Source of the DNA: Zea mays
Taxonomy: Eukaryota > Streptophyta > Magnoliopsida > Poales > Poaceae
Assembly (NCBI RefSeq): GCF_902167145.1
Contig: NC_050097.1
Span: 173,320,923-173,384,922 of the forward strand
Direction: 5' to 3'
DNA: 64,000 bases
The notes under the pieces were generated by a model. The model saw only the letters and a list, made by a program, of their open reading frames with translations. It was not told the DNA's origin and did no database searches. Of this stretch, positions 1-52,363 are shown piece by piece (positions within the stretch are counted from its first letter, which is position 1; each line of letters starts with the position of its first letter). Made by a program: the position numbers and the translations under genes.

Positions 1-64
1 CATACTTGGAAAACATTGTCAAATCTTGTTTTTGAGGACCTTCGGAAGCCGAAGGCCCCCAACA
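1..64 (-). repeat. 3' LTR fragment of element A
   Basis: These 64 bases match the end of the A 5' LTR (8244-8307) with one visible difference, ending in CCCCCAACA. The next bases (GTAGCCCCTCGC, 65-76) are the reverse complement of a purine-rich GCGAGGGGCTAC tract, the expected polypurine tract of a minus-strand element. The same tract sits beside the LTRs of elements C and G. Confidence 0.85.
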
Positions 65-218
65 GTAGCCCCTCGCAATATTAATTTGCTGTAATGATAA
101 ATTCATATTGCGATATGGACGAAGGCCTTAAGCCGAAGGTCCGAAAAACACCTTCTCTTTGCTAGAATAGCAACAGTCTTTGACAAGCGGGACCCTCCAG
201 TTTTCAACGCACTAGGTG

Positions 219-226
219 TATAAATA
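219..226 (+). promoter_or_regulatory. TATA box of the A antisense gene
   Basis: TATAAATA lies about 150 bases upstream of the ATG at 373, outside the LTR, in the internal region of A on the strand opposite to gag. Equivalent boxes occur upstream of the antisense genes of C (43736-43743), G (33335-33342, minus strand) and D (24699-24706, minus strand). That repeated position supports a dedicated promoter. Confidence 0.6.
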
Positions 227-3200
227 AGAGCTCATCACGAGTTTATTTGGCACGCTCTCTTGCCAACTGCTTTTACTCACCCAACTTTTAGCCTGCGCGC
301 AACAACACTTGCTTGGCTTTTTTTAGATTTTTAAGCTTCGGTTTCGAGAGCACTTTCTCAGCGTTTGCAAGGATGTCTGAAGATAAAAAAGTTGTTGGTG
401 ATTCGAAGCTAAGTCTTTCTGAGGAGATGCATCTGGGCTTTCTTCAATCAATGTCGAAGACTAATACAGAGAAGATTACTAAAGAAATTTTGGAGGGTTT
501 ATTTGAAGATACTGGTGACAGTGACAGTTATGATGTGGATAGTGGTGGTGAAGACTCCGAAGATCGACCTTGGCGACCAAGCCATGCGGTTTTTGGTAAA
601 TCAAGTATTAAAGAAAATCATCTTGTCAATATGAGGGGCAGATATTTCCGGGACTTGTCCGTTGTGAGGGCTGATGAAGGAGAGAAGACTTGTCCGACTC
701 CTGAGGAAAATGAAGTCGTGGTATTCCGAAGCTTCTTGAAAGCTGGACTACGATTTCCCTTAAGCAGTTTTGTTGTAGAAATACTGAAGATATTTGAAAT
801 CTACCTTCACCAACTTACCCCCGAAGCAATCATAAGGATGAATATCTTTGTGTGGGCCGTGAGAAGCCAAGGTTTGGAACCTAATGCGAAAAGTTTCTGC
901 AACATACATGAATTATTGTACGAGACAAAACCCTGGGGTAGAGAACAGTATCACAACAATTTTGGCTGCTACAGCTTCGGCTCCCGGTCTGGGTCAAGCT
1001 GCCCCGTGCCGACCTTTCGAAAGAGGTGGCCCGACAACTGGATGACGGAATGGTTTTACGTGAAGAATGACTTGAAATCACGGGAAGATATAAAAAGGAT
1101 CATTATGCGTCCCATCTGGCAACGCTTCGGCCTGCGGAGGTCGAAGGTGGAAATGAATGAAGCAGCCGAAGAATGTCAGAGAGCCTTCGGTGTTGTTTGC
1201 TCTTTTATTGGGACAAGGGATTTGGTCCAAGAACACATTGCCTTCAGAGTATGGCCACTTGTGGAAAAATGGGAAATGCCGAAGGAAACCATTAAAGAAA
1301 CTGGCGAAGGTGGACTAGTCAGGCTGAAATACACATTTAAATACGGAGATAAATTCGTTGAGCCGGATGATGACTGGTTAAAAAGTATTGAGGCCATCAG
1401 CGATGAATTGCTTGGTGTATACTCAAAGACCGAAGATACTGCATTATCAGTGCCCTTTGGAGGCCGAAAGAGGAAGAGGCTCAATCGAGTATTTGATGCA
1501 ATTGGGTTTGTCTACCCCGACTACCGCTATCCAGCGCGGGGTCAAAAAAGAAAGAATCCATCCTCTGTGAAGGAAACTGCTTCAGCTGCTCCTAGTGAGC
1601 CGGCGCCAAAGAGGAAAAGGGTAAAGGTTCTCACACACCGACCACGTTATATTGAACCGGCCACAGTGCCTGAATTTGCCGGTGAGACCTCTTCGACCAC
1701 CGAAGCTAAAGAGCCAACCCCCTGCCAAATATTGAAGTGCTGGCCGAAGTGCCAGCGACTGAAAAAATAGAAGAACCGAGAGCTGAAGAAATAAAGACAT
1801 CAGAAATCTTGAGTCCTTCGGCAGAAACTGAGACGACAAAAAGCCATAAGGGTCCAGCAGTGACCCCTAAAAGAAGAAGGATGGTTAATGTGCTAGATGT
1901 TTTAGAGACAATCAAATCTTCAAGCACACCTCCAAAGAAAATTGTTAAAACTTCCGAAGTACATACAGAAGCTTTTGTCGCCGAAGCTTCAAAGCAACAG
2001 TCTGAAATTGAAGCCGGGCCTTCAGAGCCTGCCAAGGTGAAATCCTTGGAAGCCGAAAAAACAAAAATAGCAGAAAAAATTTTGGCTGAAGAAACTGGCG
2101 CTGCTGCCCCCGAAGCATCTTCCAAAGTACTTGATTATATTGTACGACATGCTTCGGGGAAGAAATTATCTGAAGAAGAAATTTTTGAAGCTAATCACTA
2201 TGCCCGAGAACTGAAGTATCCGAAAGGGGCCTTAGTATTCAATGGCACAGATGAAGATGACTTCTTATACTGCCTCCCAGACAACAAAGAATTATCTGTC
2301 TGCCGGGAGATGGCTAGAAGTATGGGGTTCCCGAAGCTTGAAGCTGGGCTCTGCGCTATGACGAAGGACGATCTTGCGGATAGCCTTGCATATAATAGTC
2401 TGAAGGTATGAGAATTGTATATTTGGAAATTTGTAATTTTTGAATCATTCTTTTATTCTTATACTAATTCTTTTTTCATATAGGGTTTAATACTGAGCAA
2501 CGCTTTGAGAGCGCAAAAGAATGCCGAAGACGAGAGCTATAATATTGCTTTCAACAACCTACGAACAGAGGTTATTAAGCTGAGGAACGAAGCTTTGGAA
2601 AAAGATAAAATTCTGCTTACACTGGTGGATAAAATAAAGGAAGACGAAGCTACCTCTAAGGCTCAAGCTGAAGCCCAAAAACGCGAAATTCAGGATCTTC
2701 GGAAACAGCTGGCCAGAGCTAAAGAAGAACGCATACTTGAAGAAACAAAACGAGAACTTAGTGATCAATGGGCAAATCATTTGGAAATAAATGTTGAAGA
2801 GCTTCGTGCATCCAAGAAAAGGTGCTATGACAAATCCATAGAGTGTGTTAAGAAGATAAAATCCAGCTTCGCCAGCGTTGGCGCATTCTCTAGCGAAGAA
2901 AATTTCACAAGGGGGAATCCAGAAGGCCCGATTGAATGGATCAGTCACGAAGCTGAGGCCTTCGAGGAAATCTTGAATAGCCGCGGAGACATATGTGCTT
3001 TTTCAGGCGCTAGGGGGATTGCTACTGTTTTGTAAAGAAAAGGCTGTGATCATGTGAAATCTTTAGCGCAATCCGAAACTGCCTTGTCTTCCGAAGATAT
3101 AAAAGACCCCTCGACCGAAGCAAGCCTGGTTGGTGGAAAATTTTTCACCGACATCTGGGACAATGGCGGCCGAGAAATGGCCCAAGAAATCATTCAAAAA

Positions 3201-3669
3201 AGCGAAAAAGGCATCCATGATGCTAGGAAGGTAGCAGAGGCTGCTGAGAAAAGCGCAGAGCCCGAAGGGCAAATAGGTATTAATTAGTGATAACTGACTC
3301 TTCGTTGTAACTTTTTGGTTTCGAACTTGTTCATGGTTTGTAATAGTAATATATCCATATCTTCTCTTCCCTCAGAACCTGCTGAGCTATCACCAAGCCC
3401 GAATTTTTTGTATTTTGGCCATTTTTCGGAAAAAAAACACGTTTAGACCCTAGAAAATTTTAATTGCATTTTTGGACCCTTTGCTCGGCGCCATAGCCTA
3501 TGGCGCCGAGGTAACATAGCTCGGCGCCATAGGTTATGGCGCCGAGGTACATGCTACGTTGGCACAACCCGACGCCGTGGCGTTGACGTGGCACCGAGCT
3601 CGGCGCCACAGATCTTGGCGCCGAGCTCGATTGTGTTATCAACAGTTTTGTTGCAAAGAAATAACATAA

Positions 3670-3741
3670 AGCCATCTAGCTCAGTTGGTGGAGCACAAAG
3701 TTTTAAACCATGAGGTTGGAGGTTCGAGCCCTACAACTTAC
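3670..3741 (+). pseudogene. tRNA-Lys-like sequence in left arm of the Mutator-like element
   Basis: A box A-like TAGCTCAGTTGG and a box B-like GGTTCGAGCCC are spaced as in a tRNA gene, and the D arm folds normally. The anticodon region GTTTTAAACC resembles that of plant tRNA-Lys, but the loop now reads TTTTAAA. The ends AGCCATC and AACTTAC do not pair as an acceptor stem, so this is a tRNA-derived sequence and not a working tRNA. Its RNA polymerase III promoter boxes could still be active. Confidence 0.6.
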
Positions 3742-4630
3742 CTAGATTTTTTTTATCTTTTAAATAACTCATTAGGTATACTATTTGGAATGCAAGATTA
3801 TTATATAAATCAATACATTAATTTTGTAGTCTCATCAGTTTAATTTTCTAGGGTCTAAACGTGTTTTTTTCCGAAAAATGGCCAAAATACAAAAAAAAAA
3901 TCGCGAACCGACCCTTCGGTTACACTGTCTGTGGCATCATTCTCGTCGACACCGATGCACGGTGGTTTGAAGCCATTCATTCAAATAAAATCCAACATAT
4001 AGATCCTAATTAATCGCCCTCGCACCTGCTCAGGATCGGACGCACAACATTATTAACTAGCGTCACACAGGCGTCGTGTGCCGACTGTACTTTGCTGGTA
4101 GCCACTTATGCTATTTCTCTAGTTATATTACTGACAGAGCATGCACATTATATTGAAGTTGTGCTTGACTGCTTGCACATCCATCGTCGATCAGAGATAG
4201 TTAGTCAAATTGTGCTTGACTGCTTGCACATCCAACGTCGATCAGAGATAGTTAGCCATTCATTCATTCATTCATTATATTGAAGTTGTGCTTGTGCTTG
4301 ACTGCTAGCGTGCTAAAACCATGAGACGAAAGTAATAACGTCTGTTAGATAGTTAGTCAAATTAATTCAGTACCAGTTTAATCTAGAAAAAATATTAACA
4401 ACCATATTTATAGCATTAGGCGTGTGAACGAGCGTAATCAAATTAACAAATATGGTATTGAACTATTGATCATGATTTCAACCGTGGAAAATACAAAATC
4501 GGTTTGTATAAAATTAAACTGGTGAGACTACAAAATTCATGTATTGATTTATATAATAATCTTGCATTCTAAATAGTATACCTAATGAGTTATTTAAAAA
4601 ATGAGTTATTTAAAAGATAAAAAAAATCTG

Positions 4631-4703
4631 GGCAAGTTGTAGGGCTCAAACCCCCAACCTCATGGTTTAAAACCTTGTGCTCCACCAACTGAGCTAGATG
4701 GCT
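4631..4703 (-). pseudogene. tRNA-Lys-like sequence in right arm of the Mutator-like element
   Basis: Inverted copy of the sequence at 3670-3741, with a few differences in the T arm and anticodon stem (CAAGG instead of CAAAG). Box A is intact; box B is weaker here (GGTTTGAGCCC). The acceptor stem again cannot form. Confidence 0.58.
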
Positions 4704-4983
4704 TTGTGTTATTTCTTTGCAACAAAACCGTTGATAACACCACCGAGCTCGGCGCCAAGATCTGTGGCGCCGAGCTCGGTGCCACGTCAACGCCACGGCG
4801 TCGGGTTGTGCCAACGCAGCACGTACCTCGGCGCCATAACCTATGGCGCCGAGCTGTGTTACCTCGGCGCCATAGGCTATGTCGCCGAGCAAAGGGTCCA
4901 AAACTGCAATTAAAATTTTCTAGGGTCCAAACGTGTTTTTTTCCCGAAAAAGGGCCAAAATACAAAAAATTCGGTCACCAGGC

Positions 4984-5094
4984 CCCCACACGAAGGGGGA
5001 TGACGAAATTAAACAAATGGCCGAAGCCATCATGGATAGAGTTGTTGATCAGCTTCTAAATGAAGCTGCAGAAGTAGTCTTAAAGGAATATTAA
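4984..5094 (+). other. Last coding part of exon 3 of the A antisense gene
   Basis: After the right TSD, the exon resumes and encodes a short acidic/hydrophobic tail (contains DDEIKQMAEAIMDRVV) before TAA. The counterpart exon 3 in B and C is also short, begins DDEA and is acidic. Confidence 0.55.
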
Positions 5095-6034
5095 ATGCTG
5101 CTGTAAAAACATTTAGATTGTAATGCTTGCTGAGTATCATGTGTAATATTGTGTAACTTTGGATATAACATTTTAGCTGTTTATAATTCTATTTTTGACG
5201 ATGCATGAAACATCATATACGTACCATTTTTGAGCCTTCGGCGAAAAAACACCTTCCCTTCTTTTCATGCTTCGTAAAAATCAATGATCAATCCTTGTAA
5301 AATCAATAATCAATAGGTCCTTCCATTTCAGAGCTTGACGATGGTATAACTTTTCAACGGCTATTTTTTGTGCCTTGTCACTATTTCTTCAAAACAATCT
5401 TCGAATATCAATATCGAGACCCCCCTTCTTGCGTTGTTGATGCACTATGATGTATGATGTTATGCTATGCAAATGATGTAATGATGTAATGCTGTGTAAA
5501 ATGATATTTGCCGAAGGTTGACATTAATTTTTCTCTGTAAGCCTCCCTTAGGAGCTTCTTCGCCTTTTACTTCAGCGGAATCAGCGTTTATTTTTCGCTG
5601 TAAGCCTCCCTTAGGAGCTTCTTCGCCTTTTACTTTCAGCGGAATCAGCGTTTATTTTTCGCTGTAAGCCTCCCTTAGGAGCTTATTCGCCTTTTACTTT
5701 CAGCGGAATCAGCGCTTATTTTTCGCTGTAGGCTCAGAAAACTTACACTGCGCTCCCTTAGGAACGACCTTTTGCTGCTTCGAAAAAATTGTGTTGTGTT
5801 CCTTAGAACAAATTTTTGATAATTCGAAGGTCCTCCTTTACATCATAAATTCTCATGCTTCAGCAACTTAGGCCTATGGAAAAGATATATTTTCATTATG
5901 GTAAAAAGCGAAACTATTACAAGAAATTGAAAGACGATAAAAGACATTTAGACTCTCCATAATTGTTCCTTATTAAAAATAAAATAATACTGAATGTGAA
6001 AATGCGAAAAGTTGCTGTCGAGGTAGGATATTTG
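5095..6034. repeat. Convergent non-coding zone of A with 63-bp tandem repeats
   Basis: No gene between the end of the antisense gene and the end of gag. At 5530-5740 there are three full and one partial copies of a 63-64-bp unit containing CTGTAAGCCTCCCTTAGGAG and CTTCGCCTTTTACTT. Elements B (about 10336-10600) and C (about 47308-47530) have the same unit at the same relative position, where gag-pol and the antisense gene converge. A role in 3'-end formation is possible but unproven. Confidence 0.75.
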
Positions 6035-7550
6035 TCAGTAAATGTGCTTCGACTCTGGCACAGTGCTATTGACTGTGCAAGCTTCGGACTCCTCTCTGAA
6101 GTTCCGCTGAAGGTGAGTGTGCTGACTCCCTTCTGGCTGCTGACCTCGTTGTGTTGGTGGTGGCGGTGGAGGCTGTTGCCAAGATGCTTGGGGTTGGCTT
6201 GCCGAAGCAACAGAAGCTGCAGAGTGATTGCCTACATATTCTGGAATGTAAGGCGAATGGTACGAAGCAGTATGCATGACCTGCTTCGGCTGACTCTGTT
6301 GTGCTGCAGCTTCTGCTATCTCCTTTTGCTTCTGGATGGTAACATGGCACATCCTGGTGGTATGGCCCTTGTCTTCACCACAGAATAGGCAGTAGATTTT
6401 TCTTAGCTGATCCCCAAATCTTCCCCCAAAGCCCCTGGCGCCTCTGCCCCTTGGCGCTGGCGGCCGAAAAGAGCTTTGCTGCTGCCCCGAAGCTTGCGAG
6501 GAGTATTGTGGCCTTTGTTGTTGGTTCCCTCTATCATCACTCTGAGTGGAGTTATGAATTGACCTGACGTGCCTCGGATGAAATCTTCCTCCGAAGGCCC
6601 TGGTCATTTCAGAGAACCTGAATGCCTCCTCCCTTCTTTGGCGGAAGTCATTGTCAGCTCGGATATACTCGTCCATCTTCTGGAGCAGCTTCTCCAAAGT
6701 TTGTGGTGGCTTCCTGGCAAAGTATTGCGCTGAAGGTCCCGACCGAAGTCCCTTAATCATGGCCTTAATGACAATTTCATTAGGCACTGTTGGCGCCTGT
6801 GCCCTCAGACGCAGAAACCTTCGGACATACGCTTGAAGGTATTCTTCGTGGTCCTAGGTACACTGGAATAAAGCTTGAGCAGTAACTGGCTTCGTCTAAA
6901 ACCCTTGGAAGCTGGTTATCAATATATCCTTTAGCTTCTGCCATGAGGTGATTGTCCCTGGCCGAAGAGAGGAGTACCAGGTTTGAGCGACACTCTTGAC
7001 GGCCATGACGAAAGACTTTGCCATGACTGCAGTATTGCCACCATACAAAGATATGGTTGCTTCATAGCTCATCAAGAATTGCTTCGGGTCTGAATGACCG
7101 TCGTACATGGGGAGCTGGGGTGGCTTGTAAGACTAGGGCCATGGTGTAGCCTGCAATTCTGTTGATAGAGGAGAAGCATCATCAAAAGCAAAATTTCCAT
7201 GATGGAAATCTTCATACCAGTCGTCCTCATTGTAGAAGCCCTCCTGATGAAGCTCTCTGCGCGGAGGCCTTCGGTTCTGGTCATCTTGAGCAAGATGACG
7301 AACCTCTTCCGAAGCTTCATCTATCTGCCTCTGAAGGTCAGCTAGACGAGCCATCTTCTCCTTCTTTCGTTGCGCCTGTTGATGGAGCATCTCCAGGTTT
7401 TGGATTTCCTGGTCCAAGTCGTCCTCCGGAGGCGTTGGACTGGTGGCCTTCCTCTTCTGGCTTCGGGCCTCCCTAAGAGAAAGGACGTCCTGATTGGGGT
7501 CCAGCGGTTGCAGAGTGGCAGCCCCTGTCGCTGAAGCTTTTCGGCGGCAT
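6035..7550 (-). pseudogene. gag of element A, broken
   Basis: Structural Gag of a Ty3-gypsy element; forms the virus-like particle. The likely start is the ATG at 7550-7548 (MPPK), followed by a one-base frameshift in the A4 run at 7538-7541. The N-terminal part is rich in K/E/Q and probably coiled coil. The middle matches the retrotransposon gag core (DGHSDPKQFLMSYE, then AKSFVMAVK and SSLRPGTITSWQKLKD). The C-terminal part has a zinc knuckle CLFCGEDKGHTTRMC, C-X2-C-X5-H-X4-C, and a Q/P-rich tail. In-frame stops occur at 7133-7135, 6896-6898 and near 6855. The frame ends at 6035 with no protease or pol behind it. The 5' neighbour is the PBS at 7612-7622. Confidence 0.85.
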
Positions 7551-7611
7551 GGCGAAGGTGATGCTTGCCGAAGGTGTTCAAAGCTCAAGAAATGGAAGTG
7601 AGTTCACCGGA

Positions 7612-7622
7612 GGTGGGCGCCA
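7612..7622 (-). promoter_or_regulatory. Primer binding site of element A (tRNA-Lys type)
   Basis: On the minus strand TGGCGCCCACC follows the LTR end after one spacer base. It is complementary to the 3' end of plant tRNA-Lys(CUU) as I know it (...GGTGGGCG plus CCA). The same site is at 26554-26564 (B), 51756-51766 (C) and, longer, at 14079-14091 (D). Confidence 0.7.
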
Positions 7623-7623
7623 A

Positions 7624-8307
7624 TGTTGGGGACTTGTTCTCAAATGCTATGAATTAAGAACAAGGCAACATAAAATGTTAAATATCAAAGCCCTTCGTCC
7701 TTTGGAACATTATTTCCCTTCGGATATAATGAATTTCGGACGAAGGTTGTGAAGGACATACCTTCACAATCATAATAAAAGATAGGAGAGATTTGTACAC
7801 AAAACACGGAAAATAACATGATTACTTTGAACATTATTATTAATTTATTTCTATTTATCTTACTTATATAAACAACAACAAATTACAAATGTACCTTCGG
7901 TTTGAAGGAAAGTAAGGGTACAAGCGTGATGCTAATGCAAATGCCAAGTCAGCGTGAATAGTACGGGAGTACTGTTCATCTATTTATAGGCACGAGACAC
8001 AGCCCGTGTAAAATTACATTAATGCCCTTTACTTTTATCAATAACTCTATAGTAATTCTTCGAGGTCTAATTTGGCTTTTCATCTTTAGGTCGGTTCCCC
8101 TTTTCTGCTGTCATGCCGAAGCTTTTCTGCACATAGCTTCGTGATCGTTTCATCCTTTGTCATGATCGTCTTCCATTTCAGTCAAGCTTTGTCTTGACCA
8201 TGCTCTTGTATACCCGCAACCTGATTCCGAAGATACCTGCTCGCATACTTGGAAAACATTGTCAAATCATGTTTTTGAGGACCTTCGGAAGCCGAAGGCC
8301 CCCAACA
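7624..8307 (-). repeat. 5' LTR of element A
   Basis: 684 bp, TG...CA. The plus-strand ends are TGTTGGGGACTTGTTCTC and GAAGGCCCCCAACA. The minus-strand TATA box TATAAATA is at 7988-7981. LTRs of the same family are B 26566-27199 (634 bp), C 42882-43477 and 51768-52363 (596 bp each) and G 33499-34170 (672 bp). Terminal parts are shared; interiors differ. Confidence 0.9.
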
Positions 8308-9911
8308 GACGAAGAAGAAGAAACTGCTGCAACACCCTCTACCACCGACGTGGAGGAAATTTTAAAGGTAATGACTGAATCTTTGCCTGTCAAGCTAAGT
8401 CCACTGGGGCCACATCTGACGAAGCTTTTTCAGAAGGAAAAGGAGCCTGAAAAAATGAAGAAGGCGGCTAGGCCGAAAAAACAAAGAATCATTACAGTGA
8501 CGGAAGTCATTGAAGGGACACCACCACAAGCTTCAGCTCTGAAGGCACCAGCTGTTGAGAGCACAATAGCTACCGAAGCTGCACCTTCGGAAGCTACAGC
8601 TGCTGAAGCTACCACAACCAAAGATATTCAGTTAGAAAGCACAATTGCAAATATTGATAAGATACTTCTAGACATGGCCGTAGAAGAAACTGCTGCATCC
8701 ACTAAAGAGACTACGGCCCCAGAGCCTGAGAAGAAGAAAGAAATAGCCGAAGACACTTCGGAAGATGAAATTTTTAACTTTCAAAACTTAGTTGGACAAG
8801 AGCTAACAAAGGCTGAAAAGAAGAGCTAAAAGAGTATGCCATATCTTGCGGATATCGGCCGGGGGCACTTCTCTTCGGTGGTGTCGATGACAAAAAGTTG
8901 GGCTGTGTCCGGGATCATACCAGAGCGAAGGTTATTGGTACTCTATCAAAGAGTATTGGTTTCCCGAAGCTCGAAACGGACATTAGCCGCTACCGACGAC
9001 AGCACATCGTCGGTAGTTTATTCTATTCCAATTTCAAGGTAAACAACTTTTCTTTAACTTTTATTGTTTTAACAACGAAGATGTTTTCTAACGAAGGTTG
9101 TTTGTGCGCAGAGTATGCTTTTGAGTAAAGCTTTGAAAATGCAGCAAGATTTGGAAGATAAAAAACACGAAGTTATAATTGAGAGTTTAGAAAGCAAAAT
9201 AAAAGACCAATCAGCTGCTCTTGAAAAGGAGTTTGAGCTTCAGACAACCGAAGGCTTACTGGCAGAAGCTGAAGCTAAAATAGCAGAACGAAATACGAAG
9301 CTTCTCTCTCAGTCAGAAAGCTTCGAACAAGAAAAACAGAAGCTTAATGCAAAATTTGAAGCCGAGGTCCAGAAAAGTTCAGATTTGCAAAAATCATTGA
9401 CAGGGCTTCAAAACAAATGTTTGGAGTTCAGTAATCGGTGTATACAACGACTGAAGCAGGTCTTTTATTCGGTTGGAGCCAGCAGCGAGAAATTTAATCC
9501 TTCGACTGAAGACCTGCCAGGGGCCTTCGAACATATCGAAGGTGAAATTGATGACCTTGATGAAGTTATAGCTGGACATGGTGACTTTTGTGCCCTGATA
9601 GCTTCTCGGGGCACAGCTGTCCCCTTCCTGAAATCTGGCTACGAACATGGGAAGGTTGTCAATAGACCCAATTTCAGTTTATCACCAGCAGATCTAGAGA
9701 ATATTCCCAACCTTGCCCGAAGCATAGCAAATAGATTTATAAAACTGGTATGGACAAAGGGTGGATGAAGCATAGCTGGCGATGAAGCTCGGAGTCATCT
9801 TAAGTCGGTAACAAAATCATACCTTGTGCTTACCTCTTCCTTTAAACTTGAATCTTCCTTACAATACTTTAATATATACAGGATGATGAAGCCGACGAAG
9901 CTGAAGAGTAA
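8308..9911 (+). pseudogene. Antisense gene of element B, 3' part
   Basis: Continuation of a gene whose start lies left of the window, cut by element A. The exon 1 tail is 8308-9038, intron 9039-9111, exon 2 9112-9807, intron 9808-9881, exon 3 9882-9911 (DDEADEAEE then TAA). It is closely alike to the gene in C throughout. Exon 1 tail: acidic and lysine-rich, with LPVKLSPLGP and SKSIGFPKLETDISRYRR. Exon 2: coiled coil (KMQQDLEDKKHEV and following heptads), then a compact region with EHIEGEIDDLDEVIAGHGDF. Lesions: a one-base frameshift near 8815-8830, where the C copy reads through, and a TGA in exon 2 near 9766-9768 where C has CGA. The longer open frame beginning at 8194 is an artefact that reads out of the A LTR. 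Confidence 0.75.
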
Positions 9912-10820
9912 GAAGACGAAGCCGAAGCTCAATGGATGACGAAGCTGAAGCCGAAGCTCAATAGATAACTGTAGAAAAAACTCTGAGGACTCTTGTAATA
10001 ACCTTTGTAAAAAATAATGTAATTAAATTTTACTCTGAACCTTGTCCATACCTTGTAATATATTCTTACCTTTCCGTCAATGTATAAAGTGCTTCGGTGT
10101 GAACGAACTTAGCATTTTTGAGCCAAAGGCGAAAAACACCTTCCCTTCTTTTCGTACACAGTGAAGCATAAAACTGCTGTGTTATGATGATGATGATCCT
10201 ATGTATGTCTAAATGAATGTTTATGAATGCAAATGTATGATGTAATGTACCGTGCAAATGAATGTCCAAACACATGCATACGAAGCCACAACCATAGCCT
10301 TCATTCCCTTAGGAATAATCAAAGTCTCTTTGCCATTTATTTTTCGGCTTCACCGTTTATTTTTCGGTGTATCAGCGTTGACTTTTCGCTGTAAGTTCTG
10401 CATTCCCTTAGGAACGTCTTTTGAACTTCTTCGCCTTCTATTTCGGCGGTATCGTGTTGACTTTTCGCGCTTCGCCTTATATTTCGGCGGAATCAACGTT
10501 GACTTTTCGCTGTAAGCTCTGCATTCCCTTAGGAACGACTTTTGAGCAGAAAACTTACACTGCGCTCCCTTAGGAATGGCTTTTTGTAGCTTCGTCGTGC
10601 TCTGCATCCCCTTAGGGACGTATTTCGAGCTTCTCCCTGTTTTTTCTTTTCTCTTTGCACTCGATGGTGCATGCTCAGCTTTTACATTTACATTTTTTGG
10701 GGGATATTGCTCTTGTAGAGCTGAAATAAAAAAGAGAAATTACATGCTATGGCCCCATTAAAAACCTTTCTCCCCCTTTAGAAAGGAAAAGGGTACCATA
10801 GGAAAAAAGATTACATCAAG
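9912..10820. repeat. Convergent non-coding zone of B with degenerate tandem repeats
   Basis: No gene. At about 10336-10600 are diverged copies of the unit seen in A and C (CTGTAAG, CCCTTAGGA, CTTCGCC, TTTCGGCGG). It separates the plus-strand antisense gene end from the minus-strand pol stop at 10821. Confidence 0.65.
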
Positions 10821-13596: not shown

Positions 13597-13601
13597 CTCA
13601 T

Positions 13602-14076
13602 TGTTGGGGCGAAGGCAAAGACGCCACCCTTCGCTCAAGGCCTTCGCTGCAGCCGCTGGTCCGACGGAGACAAAGTGGGCAGGGACACCCTTCGCAGGTC
13701 TCGGCACTTTGACGAAGGCCTGCGGCGACGTCCTCCCACGGCGCGTCCTCGTTCAGTCCCAGGGCCCACGTGCGATCCGGCCCATTGTAACGGGCCCCGC
13801 GTGGCTGCCTCTGTATTACGGGCCTAACTTGTAAAGGAATACTTGTAATTACAGCTTGTAACCCTGCTTTATGGGAATATTCTGGGGATAAAATAGGTGT
13901 CTGAGGGCACATGCGTCCTTAACACAAGACGCTGGGCACTCAGATACCTATAAATACCCCCGCACAGTGCCCGTGAGAGGCTAGATCAACAGAGCTATTG
14001 CCCCCGTGCACGTAACCCTGTTGTCACTACTGTTCACCCTTGTTGGCCTCCTTGCCGCAGAGAGCAAGTTCCAACA
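13602..14076 (+). repeat. 5' LTR of element D
   Basis: 475 bp, starts TGTTGGGGCGAAGGC and ends GTTCCAACA. TATAAATA at 13949-13956 is the likely promoter. Open frames on either strand within it are not genes. Confidence 0.95.
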
Positions 14077-14078
14077 TT

Positions 14079-14091
14079 TGGCGCCCACCGT
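14079..14091 (+). promoter_or_regulatory. Primer binding site of element D (tRNA-Lys type)
   Basis: TGGCGCCCACCGT begins two bases after the LTR. It matches 13 bases of the complement of the tRNA-Lys(CUU) 3' end including CCA. Confidence 0.75.
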
Positions 14092-14116
14092 TCGTGCTAC
14101 GACAAAACCACCCGCG

Positions 14117-15700
14117 ATGGCACCCAAGAGAGCTAACCCCAAGGCTGACGAGGCTGCGAAGGCAGCGCTGCTGGCCGCAAGAAAGGGCAAGGCCCTCGTC
14201 CTCACCCAATCCACCCACCAAGAGGCCACTGAAGACAATGTTCCCCACACCGGCGAAGACGACACCTTCCGCACCTGCGGAACCGAAGGACAGTCGCAGC
14301 CGCCCCCAGGCTTCGCCCCACTGGAAGGCGCGGACCTCACCGAGGACGGTGAGGTCCTCGGCGTCTCGACAGAAGAACAGCTGCAGCTGCGCGCCCTGCG
14401 CCTCAGGAACCGCAATCTCCAGAGGCAGAAAGAGATACTGGAGGCCAAGCGCCAGCGTGTGTCCGCATTAGCCAAAGTGCGGCAAATGATACGCGACGAG
14501 GAGCAGAAAGCCCAAGACCTCGAGCGCGAGATCGCGCTGATGCAGCGCGAAGGCCACCTCGGTCTACAGCAAGAGCCACCCTTCCAACAGCGCGCTCAAC
14601 CGGAGGACACGTGCGAAGGCCACCTCGGCCGGCAGCATGGCCCACCCCTGCAGCACCGGGCGCAGCCGGAGAACCCGCGTTTCCCCCAGCATGACTACGT
14701 CTCCCAGCACGGCGCGCCATTCCAAGGGGTCAACTACCTCGACGAGCGAAGTCCCCTGGCGCCGCACCTACAAGTGACGCCTTGGCCAGTTAACTTTCGA
14801 GCGGGGGCATACCCCAAGTACAACGGCAGCACCGACCCGGCGCAATACATCATGAGTTATCAAGTCGCCGTTGCATCAGCCGGAGGGGACGACGCCACAA
14901 TGGCGAAGTCTTTCATCATCGCCCTAGAAGGCCCAGCACTCACCTGGTTCACCAGATTGCCTCCGTTGTCCATTGATTCGTGGAGAAGTCTCAGGGACAA
15001 GTTCCTCCTCAACTTCCAAGGGTACCGTCCAGACACCGACGCTTTGGCCGAGCTCTCGCTTTGCAAACAGCTGGAAAAGGAGACTCTGCGGGAGTATTAC
15101 CGCAAGTTCTTAACACTCAAGTCGCAGCTGCCCTCTGTCGACGATCAGATCGCTATCCACTACGCCATCAGTGGCCTTCGGGCCGGCGTCCTCTACAGCC
15201 ATTGTATCAGAGATCCACCCAAGAGCTTGCAGGAGCTATATCAGCTCTTCGAAAAATATGCCAAATTCGAAGAGCTCCACCAGCGCAAGGTCGAGTCACA
15301 ACGGAAACCCAACAGTCAGACTCCGCAGTCCAGCCGCACGTGGACAAGGACTCCGCAGCCAGACTCCGGTCGAGACGGCCGCAGTCAGCAGCAAGTCCAC
15401 AACATCGTCAACCAACAGCCTGCTGCTGACCCCCCTCGCCGCCAGGAATATCCCCCCCCCCCCAGGGCCGCGGAAATGGAACTCGCGGCAGGGGTCGAGG
15501 GCGGGCGCAGCAGCCGCCGCGCCGGTTCTATTGCCTTTTCCACGGCGAAGACTGCGCCCACCAGACCAAAGACTGCCCCGAGACGAAGGCCACCAGAGAC
15601 AGAATGGCACGGGCGCAGCCAGCCGACAATCCCAGGATCGTCGCGCATAATTACCAGCCACCCCCTCCACCATATATCCACGCTCCCGCTCCGCATCCAC
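14117..15700 (+). pseudogene. gag of element D (one frameshift)
   Basis: The ATG at 14117 (MAPKRANPKADEA) is the first after the PBS; a longer frame from 14006 starts inside the LTR and is unlikely. Residues about 110-180 are arginine/glutamate-rich coiled coil, followed by a repeated glutamine-rich segment. The gag core includes ATMAKSFIIALEGPALTWF, SWRSLRDKFLLNFQGY and LREYYRKFLTLKSQLP. The zinc-knuckle-like motif (CLFHGEDCAHQTKDC) is in a different frame from the gag core. The frame changes in a run of twelve C (15452-15463); one more C would join them. This may be a real mutation, slippage or an assembly error. Gag and pol are probably one polyprotein. Confidence 0.87.
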
Positions 15701-24897: not shown

Positions 24898-24907
24898 GGA
24901 GGGCAAA
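24898..24907 (+). promoter_or_regulatory. Polypurine tract of element D
   Basis: GGAGGGCAAA lies immediately upstream of the 3' LTR, mostly purine, the expected plus-strand primer position. Confidence 0.65.
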
Positions 24908-42881: not shown

Positions 42882-43477
42882 TGTTGGGGACTTGTTCTCA
42901 AATGCTATGAATCAAGAACAAGGCAACATAAAATGTTAAATGTTAATGCCCTTCGTCCAACGAAGCATTATTCCCTTAAGGTTTAATGAACTTTGGACGA
43001 AGGTTAAAGACAATATGATTACGAAGGTTAAATCTTCGTAATTGAATTCTAATAGATTGAATAAAGTAATATAAAATATGAAGCGTCAAAGGTGAATAAA
43101 TTATAAATGAACAACATTACTTTCATATTGTATCTATTTAATATATTTAAGCATTGGATACAGTAATACCTCTGCCTTGGCAAAAGGTTGATTCCCGAAT
43201 GGTGCGATCACTATTACAGGAATGCGTGAACAGTAAAGGAATGTCGTTCACTATTTATAGACACGGGACACAGCCTGTGAGGAATTACAATTATGCCCCT
43301 CATAAGGGATTACAACAGCGACTCAAACATTTATGGACTAAAAGGTCATTCTACTTTTATGTCGGTTTGTAATTCCGAAGCTTCATGAAGAGGAACCTTC
43401 GGTCATCACATGCGGACAGCTTCAGCCGAAGCTGTTTCTTCCTACCAGACCTTCGGCGACGAAGCATAGTCCCAACA
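42882..43477 (-). repeat. 3' LTR of element C
   Basis: 596 bp, plus-strand ends TGTTGGGGACTTGTTCTC and AGTCCCAACA. TATA box at 43259-43252 (minus strand). The PPT-type GAAGGGGCTAC (reverse complement of 43478-43488) adjoins it. Confidence 0.95.
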
Positions 43478-43735
43478 GTAGCCCCTTCGCGGTGCTAGAT
43501 CGTTTTTTGTAACGAGCTTGATCCGTGAAAAAAGTATCTTAGGCTTCGGGAAGCCGAAGGTCCAAAAAAACACCTTCCCTGAGCTCGTTGACGAGAAACG
43601 ATTCAGTTTCCAAGCGCGTGACGGTCCCACCTTGCAGAGTTACTATTTGGTCTCTGCGGTCCACCGCGCAGCGGGTGCAAGCAGCTGTTCGCCTGGTGTA
43701 AAAATCCTGGCGATTCACCTTCTTACCTGCATCAC

Positions 43736-43743
43736 TATATAAA
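43736..43743 (+). promoter_or_regulatory. TATA box of the C antisense gene
   Basis: TATATAAA about 190 bases upstream of ATG 43930, inside C but outside the LTR. Confidence 0.6.
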
Positions 43744-43929
43744 CAGACGGGTAGGTGTGAAGTTACCACAGCATTCATTGCTATTTGCACTGTTTTGCTG
43801 CCAAAATTTTTAACCATAGCCGAAGCTTGACTCTCGAAACCAAACGAAGCTCCAGCTTGAAGCCTACTTCGTCAGAAGAAAAAAAACTTCGGAAGAAAAG
43901 TATTTAGTTCCCAAAAAATCCAGAATTAA

Positions 43930-46830
43930 ATGGCTAGAGTGCGCTCTACCGCTAGGGTTGAGCGTGAAGGAGGCGAAGCTGAAGGATCGGAGACTATTCC
44001 CATCTCCGAAGCGATGCAACGATCCGGACTGGTAACCTCGAAAGAAATCCCCACTGCTGAAACAGAACAGGCAACTGCCGAAGCGGAAGAAGGAAACATT
44101 GAGGAAACTGATTCCGAAGATGATTATCATATTGCCATGCCAAGTAAGCCCAGCCACTTGGACTTCGGAAAGTCAACTATCTCTAAGGCTGATCTCTCCA
44201 AGATGGTGAAGTCGGGTTATTTCAGTGAGAGTCAGAAGAAGCTACTTCGCTTCGGGGGGGAAGAGACTACCCCGAAGCCGGAGAGGGATGAAATAATCAT
44301 TTTCAAGAGCTTTCTAAAGGCTGGGTTGAGATTCCCCCTCCATGGGATTATTGCAGATGTATTGAAGAAGTTTGGGATCTACTTTCATCAGCTGACTCCT
44401 AACGCTATCGTTAGGCTTAGTGTTTATATCTGGGCCCTCCGAAGCCAGGCAGTGGAGCCGTTTTCCGATAGCTTTTGTCGAGTTCATGAGCTGCACTACC
44501 AGACGAAGGCTAGAAAAGATGGATTGCATGATAACTTTGGTTGCTATAATTTTGCTTATCGGAAAACCACGAAATTTCCTGTAATCAGCTACCGAAGCAA
44601 ATGGCCGGCAGGCTGGAAGTCGGAATGGTTTTATGTGAAAGTTGACGAAGACAAAGAGAAGCTGGTACAAAGCCCTCTTGAATTGATCTTCGGAGAAACA
44701 AGACCGTGATGCCAAATGTCATTAGAAGGTCCCACTTGGGCTGCACTGGCTGAGTTTAAAATTATTTCAGAGCATATCGGCACAAGAGACCTGGTTCAAG
44801 AGTTCTTGGCCTTCAGGGTTTTTCCTACTTTAAAAGAATGGGAAATGCCGAAGCTAAAGGGGGAGAAGAAAGAAGGGGAACTTGTGCGGTTACCTTACTA
44901 TTACAAGTTTAAGAAATACTTTAAGACACCTTGCCAAGAGTGGCTGGACACAATTGAAATGATGTGCAATGAAATACTTGGTAATTACTCCAAAAAAGAA
45001 GATCAGTTGATGACTGCGGCCTTCGGTACCCGTCCGAAGCGAAGACTGAATCGAGTGTTGGACGCCTTGGGTTTTGAATACCCTGACTACGAACAACTGA
45101 ATAAAGGTGTCGAAGGCCGGAAAAGGAAAAGGGTAGCCGAAGCTTTAAATGAAGATGAGAAAGAACCACCAAAAGAGAAGAAAATTCCGAAGAAGAGAAA
45201 AGTATCATCTCCGAAGCGAAAAGTATCCGACGAAGAAGAGACTCCCGCATCACGCTCTGCCACTGACGTGGAAGAGATTTTGAAGGTAATGACTGAATCC
45301 CTGCCTGTGAAGCTAAGTCCATTAGGGCCTCAACTGACGAAGTTTTTTCAGAAGGAAAAGGAGCCCGAAAAAACGAAGGAAACAACTAAAACAAAGAGAC
45401 AAAGAATCATCGCAGTGACAGAAGTCATTGACAAGACACCACCGAGAGCCTCAGCTCGGAAGATACCAGCGGCTGAGGAAATAACAAATATTGAAGTCGC
45501 ACCTTCGGAGATCACGGCTACCGAAGCTACCTCAACCGAAGATTTGAACTTGGAAACCACAATCGAACATATCAACAAAATACTGCTAAACATGGCCACA
45601 GAAGAAGCTACGACTGCCGCCGAAGAGACCATGGCCGCAGTGTCTGGGAAAGAAAAGGAAATCTCTGATGAAACTTCAGAGGACGAAGCCTTCATGTTTC
45701 AAAATTTAGTTGGACAAGAACTGTCAAAAACCGAAATAGAAGAGCTTAAAGAATATGCCAAATCTTGCGGATTTAAACCAGGAGCACTCCTCTTCGGGGG
45801 TATTGACGATGAAAAATTAGACTGTATCCGGGATCAAACTGAAGCTAAGATTATCGGTACTCTGTCAAAGAGTATCGGTTTTCCGAAGCTAGAAACGGAT
45901 ATTAGCCGCTACCGACGACAACATATCGTTGGTAGTTTATTTTATTCCAATTTCAAGGTGAACTACTTTTCCCTTGACTTTTATTGTTTTTAATAACGAA
46001 GACATTTCTAACGAAGGTTGTTTATGTGCAGAGTATGCTGTTGAGTAAAGCTTTGAAAATGCAGCAGGATCTGGAAGACAAAAAACACGAGGTTATAATT
46101 GAAAATTTAGAGAGCAAATTAAAAGAGCAATCAGCTACTATTGAAAAGAAAAACTTCGAGCTTCAGACAACTGAAGGCTTATTGGCAGAAGCCGAAGCTA
46201 AAATAGCAGAATTGAATACGAAGCTTCTCTGCCAATCTGAACAGTTTGAACAAGAAAAGCAAGAACTTAATGCGAAACTTGAAGCCGAAGTCCAACAAAA
46301 TTCAGATTTGAAAAAATTATTGGCAAGCCTTCAAGACAAATGTTTGGAGTTTAGCAATAAATGTATTCAATGACTGAGAAAAATCTTCCACTCAGTCGGG
46401 GCTAGCAGTGGGAAGTTCACCCCGTCAACTGAAGATTTACCAAAAACCTTCGAACATATTGAGGGTGAAATTGATGAGCTTGACGAAGTTATAGCCGGGC
46501 ACGGTGACTTCTGTGCCTGGGTAGCTTCTCGGGGCACTGCTGCAGCTTTTCTGAAAGCTGGCTACGACCATGGAAAAATTGTTAATAGGCCCAATTTCAC
46601 TCTATCACCATCAATTTTAGATGATATTCCTGACCTCGCCCGAAGCATTTCTAATAGATTTGTAAAGATGATATGGACAAAAGGCGGGCGAGAAAAGGCT
46701 GGAGACGAAGCTCGGAGTCATCTTGAACCAGTAAGAAATCATACCTTGTGCTTACCTTTTCCTTCAAACTTGGTTTTGACTCTCAACAACTTAATTCATG
46801 TAGGATGACGAAGCCGAGACCGATGCTTAG
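43930..46830 (+). pseudogene. Spliced antisense gene of element C, two nonsense codons
   Basis: Exons 43930-45957, 46032-46730 and 46804-46830; introns 45958-46031 and 46731-46803, GT-AG. All exons are in phase; 918 codons including the stop TAG. N-terminal half: acidic leader, then FKSFLKAGLRFPLHGIIADV, HQLTPNAIVRLSVYIWALR (PF04195-like), IGTRDLVQEFLAFRVF and LNRVLDALGFEYPDYE. Middle: lysine/glutamate-rich, with KRKRV and KKRKVSSPKRK basic clusters (possible nuclear localisation). Exon 2: coiled coil (KMQQDLEDKKHEVIIENLES onward), then FEHIEGEIDELDEVIAGHGD. In-frame TGA at 44707-44709 and at about 46371-46373; the second is CGA in B. Apart from these it is complete. Transcribed towards gag-pol's 3' end. 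Confidence 0.8.
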
Positions 46831-47771
46831 AGTACGACGCCAAAGCTGAGGCCCCATGAAGATCAGTAGGAGTAGACTGTAGAAAAACTCAAGAAACTTT
46901 TGAAATAGCTTTTGTAAATATGGCTAAACAGTTCTTAATGAATTTTGTTCATACCTTGTAATATGCTCTTAACCTTCCATTAATGTATGAGGTGCTTTGA
47001 TGTGGACGAAATTATCTTTTTGAGACGAAGGCGAAAAAACACCTTCCCTTCTTTTCGTACACACCGAAGCATAAAAAACAGCTTTTTCTTTTTGCCAAAG
47101 CTCTTCTTTTTGTACACAACGAAGTACAAAAGACAGTTTTTTCCTTTTTGCCGAAGAAACCACTTATGCTATGACGATGGTTATCCTACATATGCCTGGA
47201 TGAATGTTTATGAATGCAAATGTTATGATGTAATGTGGTGTGCAAATGAATGTCCAAACACATATCCGAAGCCATAATCACAACCGTTATTTCCTTAGAA
47301 ACAATCACATATCAGCGCTGACTTTTCGCTGTAAGCCTCCCTTAGGAGCTTCTTCGCCTTTTACTTTCGGCGGTATCAGCGTTGACTTTTCGCTGTAAGC
47401 CTCCCTTAGGAGCTTCTTCGCCTTTTACTTTCGGCGGTATCAGCGTTGACTTTTCGCTGTAAGCTCTGCATTCCCTTTGGAACGACTTTTGAGCAGAAAA
47501 CTTACACTGCGCTCCCTTTGGAGCGACTTCTTTAGTAGCTTCGTCGTGCTCCGCATCCCCTTAGGGACGGCTTTCGAGCTTCTTCCCTATTTCTTTTCGG
47601 CACTCGATGGTGCGTTCTCAGTTTTTACATTTACATATTTGGGGGATTTTGCTCTTATAGAGCTAAAAAAGGAAATTACATGTGATGGCCCCATTAAAAA
47701 CCTTTCTCCCCCTTCAGAAAGGAAAATGGTGCCATGAAAGAAAAATAAAAAATATAAAAAATTACATCGAG
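46831..47771. repeat. Convergent non-coding zone of C with 63-bp tandem repeats
   Basis: Two-and-a-half near-perfect 63-bp copies start at about 47329, 47392 and 47455 (unit includes GCTGTAAGCCTCCCTTAGGA and CTTTCGGCGGTATCAGCG). They lie between the antisense gene and the end of pol, as in A and B. No gene. Confidence 0.8.
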
Positions 47772-50700
47772 TTATACATAATATCGCCGAAGCTCATCCG
47801 CATTCCAAGATCTAGGAATGTCGTTGTCGTCCATATCCTTCAATCTGTATGAACCGGGTCTTGACGAAGATACTACCAAAAAAGGTCCCTCCCATTTCAA
47901 CTGCAACTTGCCCACTGTGTCTGGGTTAGCCACTCTCCGAAGCACCAAATGTCCTGGCTCAATATTCTTTAGCCGAACCTTTCTATCACGCCATTTGATT
48001 GTTTCGGCTTGATATTTATTGATGTTCTCCACAGCTTGAAGCCTGATCCCTTCTATAGCATCTTTTTCCACAGAATGATCAGCTTCAGAATCTGATTCTA
48101 CCGAAGCTACTACTCTTATTGATCCAGTTTTAGCTTCCTCTGGAGTTATTGCTTCGTCACCAAACAATAATTTGAATGGAGTAAAGCCTGTTGACCTTGA
48201 TGTTGTTGTGTTGTGGCTCCATACCACTTTGATTAATTGATCTGGCCACTTTCCCCTGGGTTGATTGAAGATTAACTTCATTATTCCTGTCATTATGATG
48301 CCATTGGCTCTTTCAACAAGTCCATTTGACTCCGGATGCCTGACTGATGCAAAATGGATCTTTGTGCCAATTTGATCACAGAATTCTCTGAAAGCTTCGG
48401 AGTCGAACTGTGTTCCATTATCTACAGTGATGGCCTTTGGTACTCCGAAACGACAAACAATATTCTGCCAGAAAAACTTTTGAATGGTGGCCGAAGTTAT
48501 TGTGGCTAAAGGCTTTGCCTCAATCCATTTAGAAAAATATTCCACAGCCACTACAACATATCTTAAGTTTCCTTGGGCCGGTGGTAACGGACCTAACAAG
48601 TCAAGGCCCCACCTTTGCAATGGCCAGATGGGTTGTATGAGCTGAGTTAGAGACGAAGGTTGTTTTTGATCTCTTGCACATTTCTGACAACCTTCGCACT
48701 TTCGAACTAATTCCGCTGCATCCGAAGCTGCCTTCGGCCAATAAAACCCTTGACGAAAAACTTTTCCAAGTAACGACCTAGATCCAATGTGAGATCCACA
48801 CAGGCCTGCATGTATTTCTTTCATCAATTCTATGCCTTCGGCTCTAGATAAACACTTGAGTAATGGAGCACAAACTCCATGCTTGTACAACTCCCCTTCT
48901 ATCATGACATATGGACGAGCTCTTGCCTCTATCCTCCTGTTATAAGCTTCGTCATCTGAAAGGAAGTTACCCTGAAGGTAAGAGATGATCTCAGTTCTCC
49001 AGTCTTCACTATAAACAGGAGATATATTGAGGACTGCTCTTTCAAGAAGTTCCACTGAAGGTGCTTTTATTGTTTCGAAGAACACATCCGAAGGTAAGGG
49101 CAGCCCCTGTGCTGCTGACTTAGCTAGCAAATCAGCATGCTCATTTTGTCCTCGAGGGATATTTTTGACAGAAAATCCTTCAAAGGAAGCTTCAATCCTT
49201 CGGACCGTGTCTAGATATTTTTCAAGCTTCGGATCTTTAGCCTTACAACTCTTGTCGATATGACCCGAAACAACCTGGGAATCAGTTTTAAGAATGGCCC
49301 TTCTGATTCCCATTGCTTTTAACTTCTGAAGGCCCAAAAGCAGGGCTTCGTACTCAGTAATATTGTTTGTACAACTAAAATCGAGTCTTGCCGCATAACA
49401 AGTTTTAACTTTGGATGGTGAGACCAACACAGCGGCTGCTCCTGCTCCGAAGGTTCCCCAAGACCCATCGCAAAACACTGTCCATACTTCAGCATCTTTA
49501 TTTGTTTCTTCATCCTGAGCCCCTGGCGTCCAGTCAGCAATGAAATCTGCCAACGCTTGAGACTGGATCGAAGATCTATGCACATAATCAATGCAAAATT
49601 CATTGAGCTCTGCAGCCTATTTTCCAATCCGTCCAGTAGCTTCTCTATTTCTCATAATATCCTTCAACGGTTGCGAAGAAGGAACAACAATATTGTATGC
49701 TTGAAAGTAATGCCGAAGCTTCCTGGATGCCATCAAAACAGCATATAACACCTTCTCCAATTCTGTATAGTTTTTCTTCGATAAACTAAGAACCTCAGAT
49801 ACAAAATATACTGGGACCTGCTTCTTGACTTGGCCATCAAGCTTCTCCTGGACAAGTGCTGCACTTACCGCTGAGTGCGAAGCTGCCACATATAATAACA
49901 AAGGAGCCCCTGGTGTTGGTGGAGTTAATGTTGTTAAATCTATCAAATATTGCTTCAGTTCCTCGAAGGCTTTTTGTTGGCTTGGTCCCCATTGAAAGAC
50001 TTCGGCTGATTTCAGCACTTCGAAGAATGGTAAATTTCTCTCTGCTGATCTGGATATGAATCTATTGAGAGATGTCAGCCTCCCTGTCAGTCTTTGGGCC
50101 CCCTTTTTGTATTTGGTGGCTCCATTCGAAGTATAGCTTCAATTTTACTTGGATTAGCTTCAATTCCCTTTGTTGAAACCAAGCATCCAAGAAATTTCCC
50201 CTTCTTTACTCTGAAGACACATTTTTCTGGATTCAGCTTTAGACCAGCTTGTCTAAAACTGGCGAAGGTCTCCTGCAAATCAGCAATGTGATTTTCTTGT
50301 TTCGTGCTTTTTACAATGATATCATCAACATAAGTTAGCACATTTCTGCCTATCTGAGACTGAAGAACCTTCGCAGTCATTCTGCTGAAACTTCCTCCAG
50401 CGTTCTTGAGCCCCTCAGGCATCCGAAGGTAACAATATGTTCCACTAGGGGTTATGAAACTGGTCTTCGACTCATCCTCCTTCTTCATCCAAATTTGATG
50501 ATAGCCTGAATAACAATCTAGAAGACTCATAAGTTCTGACGAAGCTGCTGCATCAACTAAGGAGTCTATCCTTGGCAATGGGAATTCGTCCTTCGGACAG
50601 GCCTTGTTGAGATCCGTAAAATCGATACACATTCGCCATTTGCCATTGGCCTTTTTTACCATAACAGTGTTAGCTAGCCATTCTGGGTACTTTACTTCTC

Positions 50701-51724
50701 TGATAACTCCTGCACTGAGGAGTCTTTTGACTTCATTCCGAGCTCCTTCGGCCTTGTCTTCAGACATTTTCCGAAGCCTCTGCTTTCTGGGTCTGAAGAA
50801 TGGGTCAACATTGAGTGAGTGTTCAATAACATCCCTGTTAACTCCGCAAAGATCATTGGCTGACCATGCAAAAACATCTTTGTTGTTGAACAAAAACCTT
50901 ATCAAGGTTTTCTCCTGTTCTTCGGATAATTGGGAGCCCAACAGCACCTTCTGCTCTGCTATGTCCTCACATAAAAGCATGGGCTTCGGCTGATCTGCCG
51001 AAGCTGCTTTCTCCCTGCTGAATTTGTACTGTTCACAAGCTTCAGCTCCATCTATATTATGGATTGCTTTTGAGTCAGTCCAGTTTCCCTCGGCCCTTCT
51101 GGCAGCTTCCTGACTTCCATGAATAGCAATGGGTCCTTGATCCGAAGGTATCTTCATGCAAAGGTAAGCAGGATGAAGAATTGCTTCGAAAGCATTGAGG
51201 GTGCCACGACCAATAATTGCATTGTAAGGGTATTCCATGTCAACAATGTCAAACACAACTTGCTCAGTTCTGGTGTTGTTGATGAATCCGAAGGTCACTG
51301 GCATGGTGATTTTGCCTAGTGCTACAATCTGTCTTCCTCCGAAGCCACAGAGAGGGTGCGTAGCATCATGAATCTTATCTTCTGGCTCTTGCATTTGTCT
51401 GAAGGCCTTAGCAAATATAATATCAGCTGCACTGCCTATATCAACCAAAACATTGTGGACCAGAAACCCTTTGATAACGCAAGAAATAACCATAGCATCG
51501 TTATGAGGAAAATCCTTGAGCTGAAGGTCCTCTTGGGAGAAGGTGATTGGAATGTGGGACCATCTTGACTTGATGAAGGGTCCCTGCACTCCAACATGTT
51601 GTACCCTTCTCTGCGCCTCTTTCTTCTGCTTTTTGTTGGTTGGTTCTGAGCACGAACCACCTGTTATCGGGAGCACCAGCTTCGGGGCCGAAGCAGCTCC
51701 AACTTGATCGTTAATCGAAGCCAT
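47772..51724 (-). pseudogene. protease-pol of element C, two lesions, no gag
   Basis: The ATG at 51724-51722 (MASINDQVGAAS) lies just behind the PBS. Protease: NVLVDIGSAADIIFAKAF, with DIG where B has DTG, so the active site may be altered. RT: CIDFTDLNKACPKDEFPLPR, LLDCYSGYHQIWMKKED, FSRMTAKVLQSQIGRN and LTYVDDIIVKS (YVDD). RNase H: VFCDGSWGTFGAGAAAVLV, NNITEYEALLLGL. Integrase: CGSHIGSR, FYWPKA and CEGCQKCARDQ; WGLDLLGPLPPAQGN, ITVDNGTQFDSEAF and HPESNGLVERANG; the C-terminus is RRYYV. A one-base deletion in an A run near 50104-50110 and a TAG at 49617-49619 (where RT-family copies have TGG) break the frame. Stop TAA 47772-47774. Confidence 0.9.
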
Positions 51725-51767
51725 CAGCTCAAAAAGTGGAAGTGAGTTGACCAGAGGTGGGCGCCAA

Positions 51768-52363
51768 TGTTGGGGACTTGTTCTCAAATGCTATGAATCA
51801 AGAACAAGGCAACATAAAATGTTAAATGTTAATGCCCTTCGTCCAACGAAGCATTATTCCCTTAAGGTTTAATGAACTTTGGACGAAGGTTAAAGACAAT
51901 ATGATTACGAAGGTTAAATCTTCGTAATTGAATTCTAATAGATTGAATAAAGTAATATAAAATATGAAGCGTCAAAGGTGAATAAATTATAAATGAACAA
52001 CATTACTTTCATATTGTATCTATTTAATATATTTAAGCATTGGATACAGTAATACCTCTGCCTTGGCAAAAGGTTGATTCCCGAATGGTGCGATCACTAT
52101 TACAGGAATGCGTGAACAGTAAAGGAATGTCGTTCACTATTTATAGACACGGGACACAGCCTGTGAGGAATTACAATTATGCCCCTCATAAGGGATTACA
52201 ACAGCGACTCAAACATTTATGGACTAAAAGGTCATTCTACTTTTATGTCGGTTTGTAATTCCGAAGCTTCATGAAGAGGAACCTTCGGTCATCACATGCG
52301 GACAGCTTCAGCCGAAGCTGTTTCTTCCTACCAGACCTTCGGCGACGAAGCATAGTCCCAACA
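51768..52363 (-). repeat. 5' LTR of element C
   Basis: Same length and, by eye, same sequence as 42882-43477. TATA box at 52145-52138 (minus). Confidence 0.95.

Follow-up and report, generated by a model that had tools for sequence, protein, structure and literature searches.

The separation of gag and pol onto different copies of long terminal repeat (LTR) retrotransposons has already been described in maize, and the arrangement itself is thus not new. A maize survey reports 25 LTR families that have GAG and POL in separate copies, with <1% of copies holding both; there, Cinful codes for the polyprotein domains and Zeon for GAG, a relationship 'approaching a mutualism' (PMC8547701, which refers to the original description of Cinful by Sanz-Alferez et al. 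2003; here and below, statements on published work are limited to the excerpts used). Zeon is 7.3 kb long (PMC2412881), the sizes of Cinful-zeon copies peak at 7.1–7.5 and 9.2–9.7 kb with LTRs of 450–750 bp (PMC5311732), and Cinful-Zeon is abundant in Zea and Tripsacum, with low copy numbers in other lineages and 0.00 Mb given in the final two columns of the table concerned (PMC7718754). Here, a stretch of 64,000 nucleotides from Zea mays (NCBI RefSeq assembly GCF_902167145.1, contig NC_050097.1, positions 173,320,923 to 173,384,922 of the forward strand; hereafter the window) was analysed. Across the window, grass-type LTR retrotransposons are nested in one another; three of them, all on the minus strand, concern us: the gag-only element A and the pol-only elements B and C. 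Very probably they belong to a split system like that of Cinful (pol) and Zeon (gag) in the Retand lineage (Tat) of the Ty3/gypsy elements, A as a gag-type and B and C as pol-type members; this assignment is based on gene content, sizes and published descriptions.

Elements of this lineage, such as Grande, RIRE2 and Retand, carry, between pol and the 3′ LTR, an antisense gene that is mostly of the PF04195 type, and they frequently have tandem repeats. In a 2025 survey in which Cinful-1 (AF049110) serves as a Retand query, antisense PF04195 was present in 97% of the Retand clusters and tandem repeats in about half; ten of the 63 representative clusters were defective (seven without GAG, two more without GAG and protease; nine of the ten from Poales), whereas 53 were not defective in any typical domain and thus carry both gag and pol, wherein they differ from the elements described here (PMC11963269). 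Both traits recur in A and C, where tandem repeats lie behind the coding region and are followed, ahead of the 3′ LTR, by an antisense gene with PF04195. Two further systems are comparable in part. BARE2 of barley has no Gag of its own and is packaged in the particles of its relative BARE1; this pair, of the copia superfamily according to the title of the reference, is one-sided since BARE1 makes its own Gag. The TR-GAG elements have LTRs and encode GAG alone, and transposition in Arabidopsis has been shown for one of them; they differ in having a complete relative at hand, and the excerpt used describes no pol-only partner class for them.

Two complementary classes with common ends, gag-only (A) and pol-only (B and C), were confirmed in the window (Table 1). 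In A, gag lies directly behind the primer-binding site (PBS) and no pol was detectable: the database Gag P0246 (residues 4–509 of 509) matched A at 7543–6038 on the minus strand with 82% identity, and the pieces of C pol matched A only with residues 1–22 of the stop-to-stop frame, which are LTR/PBS sequence. In B and C, pol lies directly behind the PBS, with the first ATG 43 nt behind the LTR in both; reading on from the PBS, a short leader peptide is followed by protease, and no gag was detectable, P0246 having no match in either element at E 1e-3. Its sole other match in the window at this threshold is the Gag of a gypsy element nested in B (14648–15304, 34%). In the same kind of window search, the pieces of C pol matched B, C, the nested gypsy and, weakly, a copia integrase; the Pfam domains reverse transcriptase (RT), ribonuclease H (RNase H) and integrase were found in C. 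The window thus offers both a gag-only copy and pol-only copies in which pol follows the PBS directly, as in the descriptions of Cinful and Zeon. The sizes likewise fit the Cinful-zeon peaks, with ~7343 bp for A (by arithmetic, after subtraction of an insert of 1574 bp), 9482 bp for C, and LTRs of 684, 634 and 596 bp. For A, the distal LTR is represented by positions 1–64, which equal the start of the LTR at 7624–8307 with one mismatch in 64, and the in-frame stops of its gag were read from a three-frame translation. At 51434–51445, the active-site motif of the C protease differs from that of B; both forms occur among the listed database copies.

Table 1. Features of elements A, B, C and G and of the insertions within them (positions in the window)
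Feature	Positions	Strand	Remarks
Element A, gag-only type	1..8307	-	inserted in B, which resumes at 8308; distal (3′) LTR cut by window start
A 5′ LTR, 684 bp	7624..8307	-	
A PBS	7606..7622	-	TGGCGCCCACC-type
A gag	6038..7552	-	full length compared with homologues; frame change near start, three in-frame stops
A 64-bp tandem repeats	5527..5730	-	~300 bp behind gag end; TRF
A antisense gene	292..3035	+	three open reading frame (ORF) pieces, PF04195 in the first
Insert in A, 1574 bp	3400-4973		inverted arms ~460 bp, 92% alike; flanking 10-bp repeats with one mismatch
Element B, pol-only type	8308..27199	-	distal LTR beyond window; split by nested gypsy 13602-25382; hosts A at 8307/8308
B 5′ LTR, 634 bp	26566..27199	-	
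B PBS	26548..26564	-	
B pol, first piece	25383..26522	-	protease, start of RT
B pol, second piece	10824..13601	-	rest of RT, RNase H, integrase (all three in Pfam)
B tandem repeat	10350..10510	-	degenerate copies
B antisense gene, remaining part	8308..9768	+	no PF04195 match in visible part
Nested gypsy, complete	13602-25382		475-bp LTRs 99.6% alike, CTCAT duplication; gag and pol; interrupts B
Element C, pol-only type, complete	42882..52363	-	9482 bp; target duplication TATAG on both sides
C 5′ LTR, 596 bp	51768..52363	-	identical to 3′ LTR (596/596)
C 3′ LTR	42882..43477	-	
C PBS	51750..51766	-	
C pol	47775..51724	-	protease, RT, RNase H, integrase; one frame change, one stop
C 64-bp tandem repeats	47310..47490	-	~300 bp behind pol end; TRF
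C antisense gene	43930..45993	+	PF04195 in first ORF
G antisense gene, A-like	31991..33241	-	PF04195 just below cut-off (23.5 vs 26.2 bits)
G 3′ LTR	33499..34170	+	

What distinguishes the A type from the C type is a single gene cassette, which lies between PBS and repeats. Their DNAs are similar over the LTR, starting upstream of the TATA box and continuing for 42 nt beyond the LTR; the similarity is lost where the gene begins and reappears 256 nt behind the end of gag in A and 232 nt behind the end of pol in C, inside the 64-bp repeat block (79% over 233 columns; 89–90% in overlapping sub-blocks). The TATA box is alike in the four LTRs of A, B, C and a further element, G, and the PBS of A, B and C is TGGCGCCCACCTC, which we take to fit tRNA-Lys. 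The first-pass annotation had assigned LTR ends, PBS, polypurine tract (PPT) and repeats of 63 bp to all elements in common. For the LTR ends, the PBS and the presence of a tandem repeat this stood; the period given by TRF, however, is 64 in A and C, with degenerate copies in B, and the PPT is visible and alike in A, C and G while that of B lies beyond the window. Of the internal DNA common to A and C, the 64-bp repeats belong to the best conserved parts. Their blocks are 80% (A–C), 72% (B–C) and 66% (A–B) alike, which is too little to claim exchange, and four repeat stretches fold better than dinucleotide shuffles (z from −1.9 to −3.3).

Could this complementarity of A and C be a false one, produced by chance truncation or misassembly? 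A contains a nested insert and loses its distal end at the window start, and both genes carry lesions; yet C has identical LTRs and a target duplication, the gag of A is full length, the similarity between A and C breaks at both borders of the cassette, and the split pattern is repeated by the listed homologues (see below), so that the probability of such an artefact is next to negligible. The identical LTRs of C cannot order the lesions of its pol before or after insertion.

Outside the cassette, the split is followed by both the antisense gene and the LTRs. Amino-acid identity of the antisense gene is 55–63% for A–G and 63% for B–C versus 26–46% across the split, as the first-pass annotation had proposed for its two versions. 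For the four LTRs of the window, the quartet AG|BC is backed by 37 informative sites versus 13 and 10 (ultrafast bootstrap 100), and the LTR tree thus groups A with G and B with C, just as the antisense gene does. G is on the plus strand, and only its antisense gene and 3′ LTR are visible; its gag or pol content lies out of view, since a copia element appears to interrupt it and its 5′ half falls outside the window. The quartet, in following the split, speaks against a homogenisation of LTRs between the two types, but only weakly, since the raw identities barely differ. A free-end-gap alignment gave LTR identities of 78–85% (A–C 81%, 509 columns), which are inflated, most so for C–G, and were not used.

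The pol genes that stand without gag appear to have been under selection. Between B and C, the ratio of non-synonymous to synonymous substitution rates (dN/dS; NG86) was 0.06, 0.04, 0.02, 0.05, 0.06 and 0.10 in six pieces (1234 codons), with saturated dS (1.9 and 2.2) in two of the pieces and with LTR/PBS sequence making up 22 of the 402 codons of the first; counts by codon position (for example, 22, 18 and 105) agree with these low ratios. The gag-less junction and the N-terminus of pol are common to B and C, and gag was therefore most likely already lost in their ancestor. Pol would then most likely have been kept working in both lines after the loss, and low dN/dS in a pol that lacks gag implies that Gag had to come from another element. 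As far as substitution patterns can tell, this favours a dependence that has lasted over a pair of defunct deletion products; dN/dS does not say whose Gag served the pol of B and C.

Database homologues were collected from 5.8 billion predicted proteins (2664, 3610 and 690 matches, with the best 120 of each listed); in the pol search only the 7989 candidates with the most words in common were scored, and the homologous proteins are mostly from metagenome contigs. Among the matches listed, none of the 218 distinct Gag homologues matches pol and none of the best 120 Pol homologues matches gag. Twelve of the 120 listed Pol homologues reach the PBS (11 by script and P0154 by eye), seven of them continuing into the LTR and none into gag, and two of the 218 listed Gag homologues (P0252 and P0312) reach the PBS and LTR. 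Under one rule for all, 99 of the 218 listed Gag homologues have the same C-terminus as the Gag of A (92 of 120 and 6 of 98 under two other rules). These lists, which are no substitute for a census, lend support to the split at the level of predicted proteins. One Gag homologue, P0281, bears a foreign SH3 domain, and scans of viral contigs with the protease-RT of C and the gag of A found no relative.

A different origin of the two classes would be a complete gag-pol element with the same LTR, off which A- and C-type copies live as separate internal deletions. Complete elements of the same general plan do exist, as the nested gypsy shows, and one-sided dependence on a complete relative is known from TR-GAG and BARE2. 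Such parasitic deletion derivatives are nevertheless quite improbable in view of the gag-less junction, the position of which B and C have in common (their longest common stretch being 83.6% alike), the low dN/dS in pol, the listed homologues, among which 0 of 120 Pol and 0 of 218 Gag proteins combine both genes, and the <1% of copies with both genes across the 25 published families (PMC8547701).

In the complete gypsy nested in B (13602–25382), a 79-bp repeat is present eight times and there is also an antisense PF04195 gene; the element has the same general plan as the split ones. Its protease-RT is 49–65% identical to that of the pol-only type. With such a complete cousin in the window, pol-only elements might be thought to take their Gag from a different complete family of Retand type, for example this one, leaving A as a dead sideline; however, the Gag of the nested element is only ~34% identical to that of the A type, its LTR differs beyond the first bases, and the A-type Gag is represented in the database by many relatives whose end is conserved; together, these points make a foreign source of Gag very improbable.

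The reading of A and B/C as gag-type and pol-type members of a split system can be set against the published ones. The first-pass annotation had regarded cinful/zeon as a system with one defective partner, next to which mutual dependence would be more unusual; this is contradicted by the maize survey, whose excerpt gives Cinful pol, Zeon GAG, near-mutualism and 25 split families (PMC8547701). Since that survey describes the two members in these terms, the system of the window is most likely the known Cinful/Zeon system or a close relative. Compared by description, Cinful-zeon (RLG00001) has the same split, the same sizes and the same Retand lineage, with the difference that the LTRs of A and C are only 60–68% alike.

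Several points weigh against this reading. The gag of A and the pol of C are both broken in the window copies. In the published figures, GAG-only and POL-only copies account for 1.6 and 13.5% of Cinful-zeon copies (PMC8547701), and the size given for Cinful is 8.5 kb, not 9.5 (PMC2412881). The LTR identity between A and C (60–68%, depending on the aligner) lies below the 80% rule that merged Cinful and Zeon, and A and C do not form a single family under that rule. Raw LTR identities (A–G 66%, B–C 67%, A–B 66%, B–G 62%, A–C 60%, C–G 57%) would not by themselves separate the types, A–B being equal to A–G. Given the A–C value and the mere 67% between B and C, both of the pol type, the four elements may represent several related split subfamilies instead of one matched pair. 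As for the homologues, a gag in a separate upstream ORF is missed wherever a Pol homologue falls short of the PBS.

Mutual dependence of the gag-only and pol-only types is the best reading of the locus and is supported by the low dN/dS in the gag-less pol. Each type retains the cis signals, namely the stretch from TATA box to U5, the PBS, the PPT and the 64-bp repeat block, but has only a single gene cassette, which is gag in A and pol in B and C, between PBS and repeats. The A-type Gag would build particles, the C-type Pol would join these in trans, and both types of RNA would be packaged and copied by virtue of their common cis signals. It is this trans-complementation that we infer, which does not require that A and C be each other's direct partners. 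The earlier proposal is accordingly upheld for the two complementary classes, with the mutual dependence itself a deduction.

It is also conceivable, though unlikely, that the system is an old two-component element, the gag and pol lineages of which each keep their own version of LTR and antisense gene and yet are interdependent through a few cis signals. The basis for this long separation is that LTRs are 57–66% alike across the split and that the synonymous divergence of pol between B and C ranges from 0.45 to >0.9; the U5–PBS stretch and the structured 64-bp repeats would then be, above all, the common packaging signal.

Other elements complete the nest. A copia RT fragment (27207–29297) lies to the right of B, between B and G; B probably sits in a copia element, which in turn would sit in G. 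Another copia element (53586–62986) has gag, integrase and RT, LTRs of ~1.3 kb that are 96% alike, and CACCGGACTGTCCGGTG palindromes, and presumably resembles maize Ji or Opie. An ORF for a CACTA-type transposase (tnp2 plus transposase-associated domain) is located at 40009–41865. The insert in A is one that we assume to be Mutator-like, and its arms contain a stretch that we took to resemble a tRNA gene; ARAGORN reported no tRNA gene in these arms. Even with up to 4 substitutions allowed, the Grande and knob primers (PMC7264354) matched nowhere in the window.

To the known system, this locus adds the borders of the cassette, dN/dS values for a gag-less pol, and an LTR tree and an antisense gene that track the split. 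A, B and C form a clean and readable case of a retrotransposon genome divided between two kinds of element, neither of which would be able to copy itself alone. The low dN/dS in the gag-less pol favours a true division of labour over decay, and the blocks common to A and C point to the cis signals that a split system would need.

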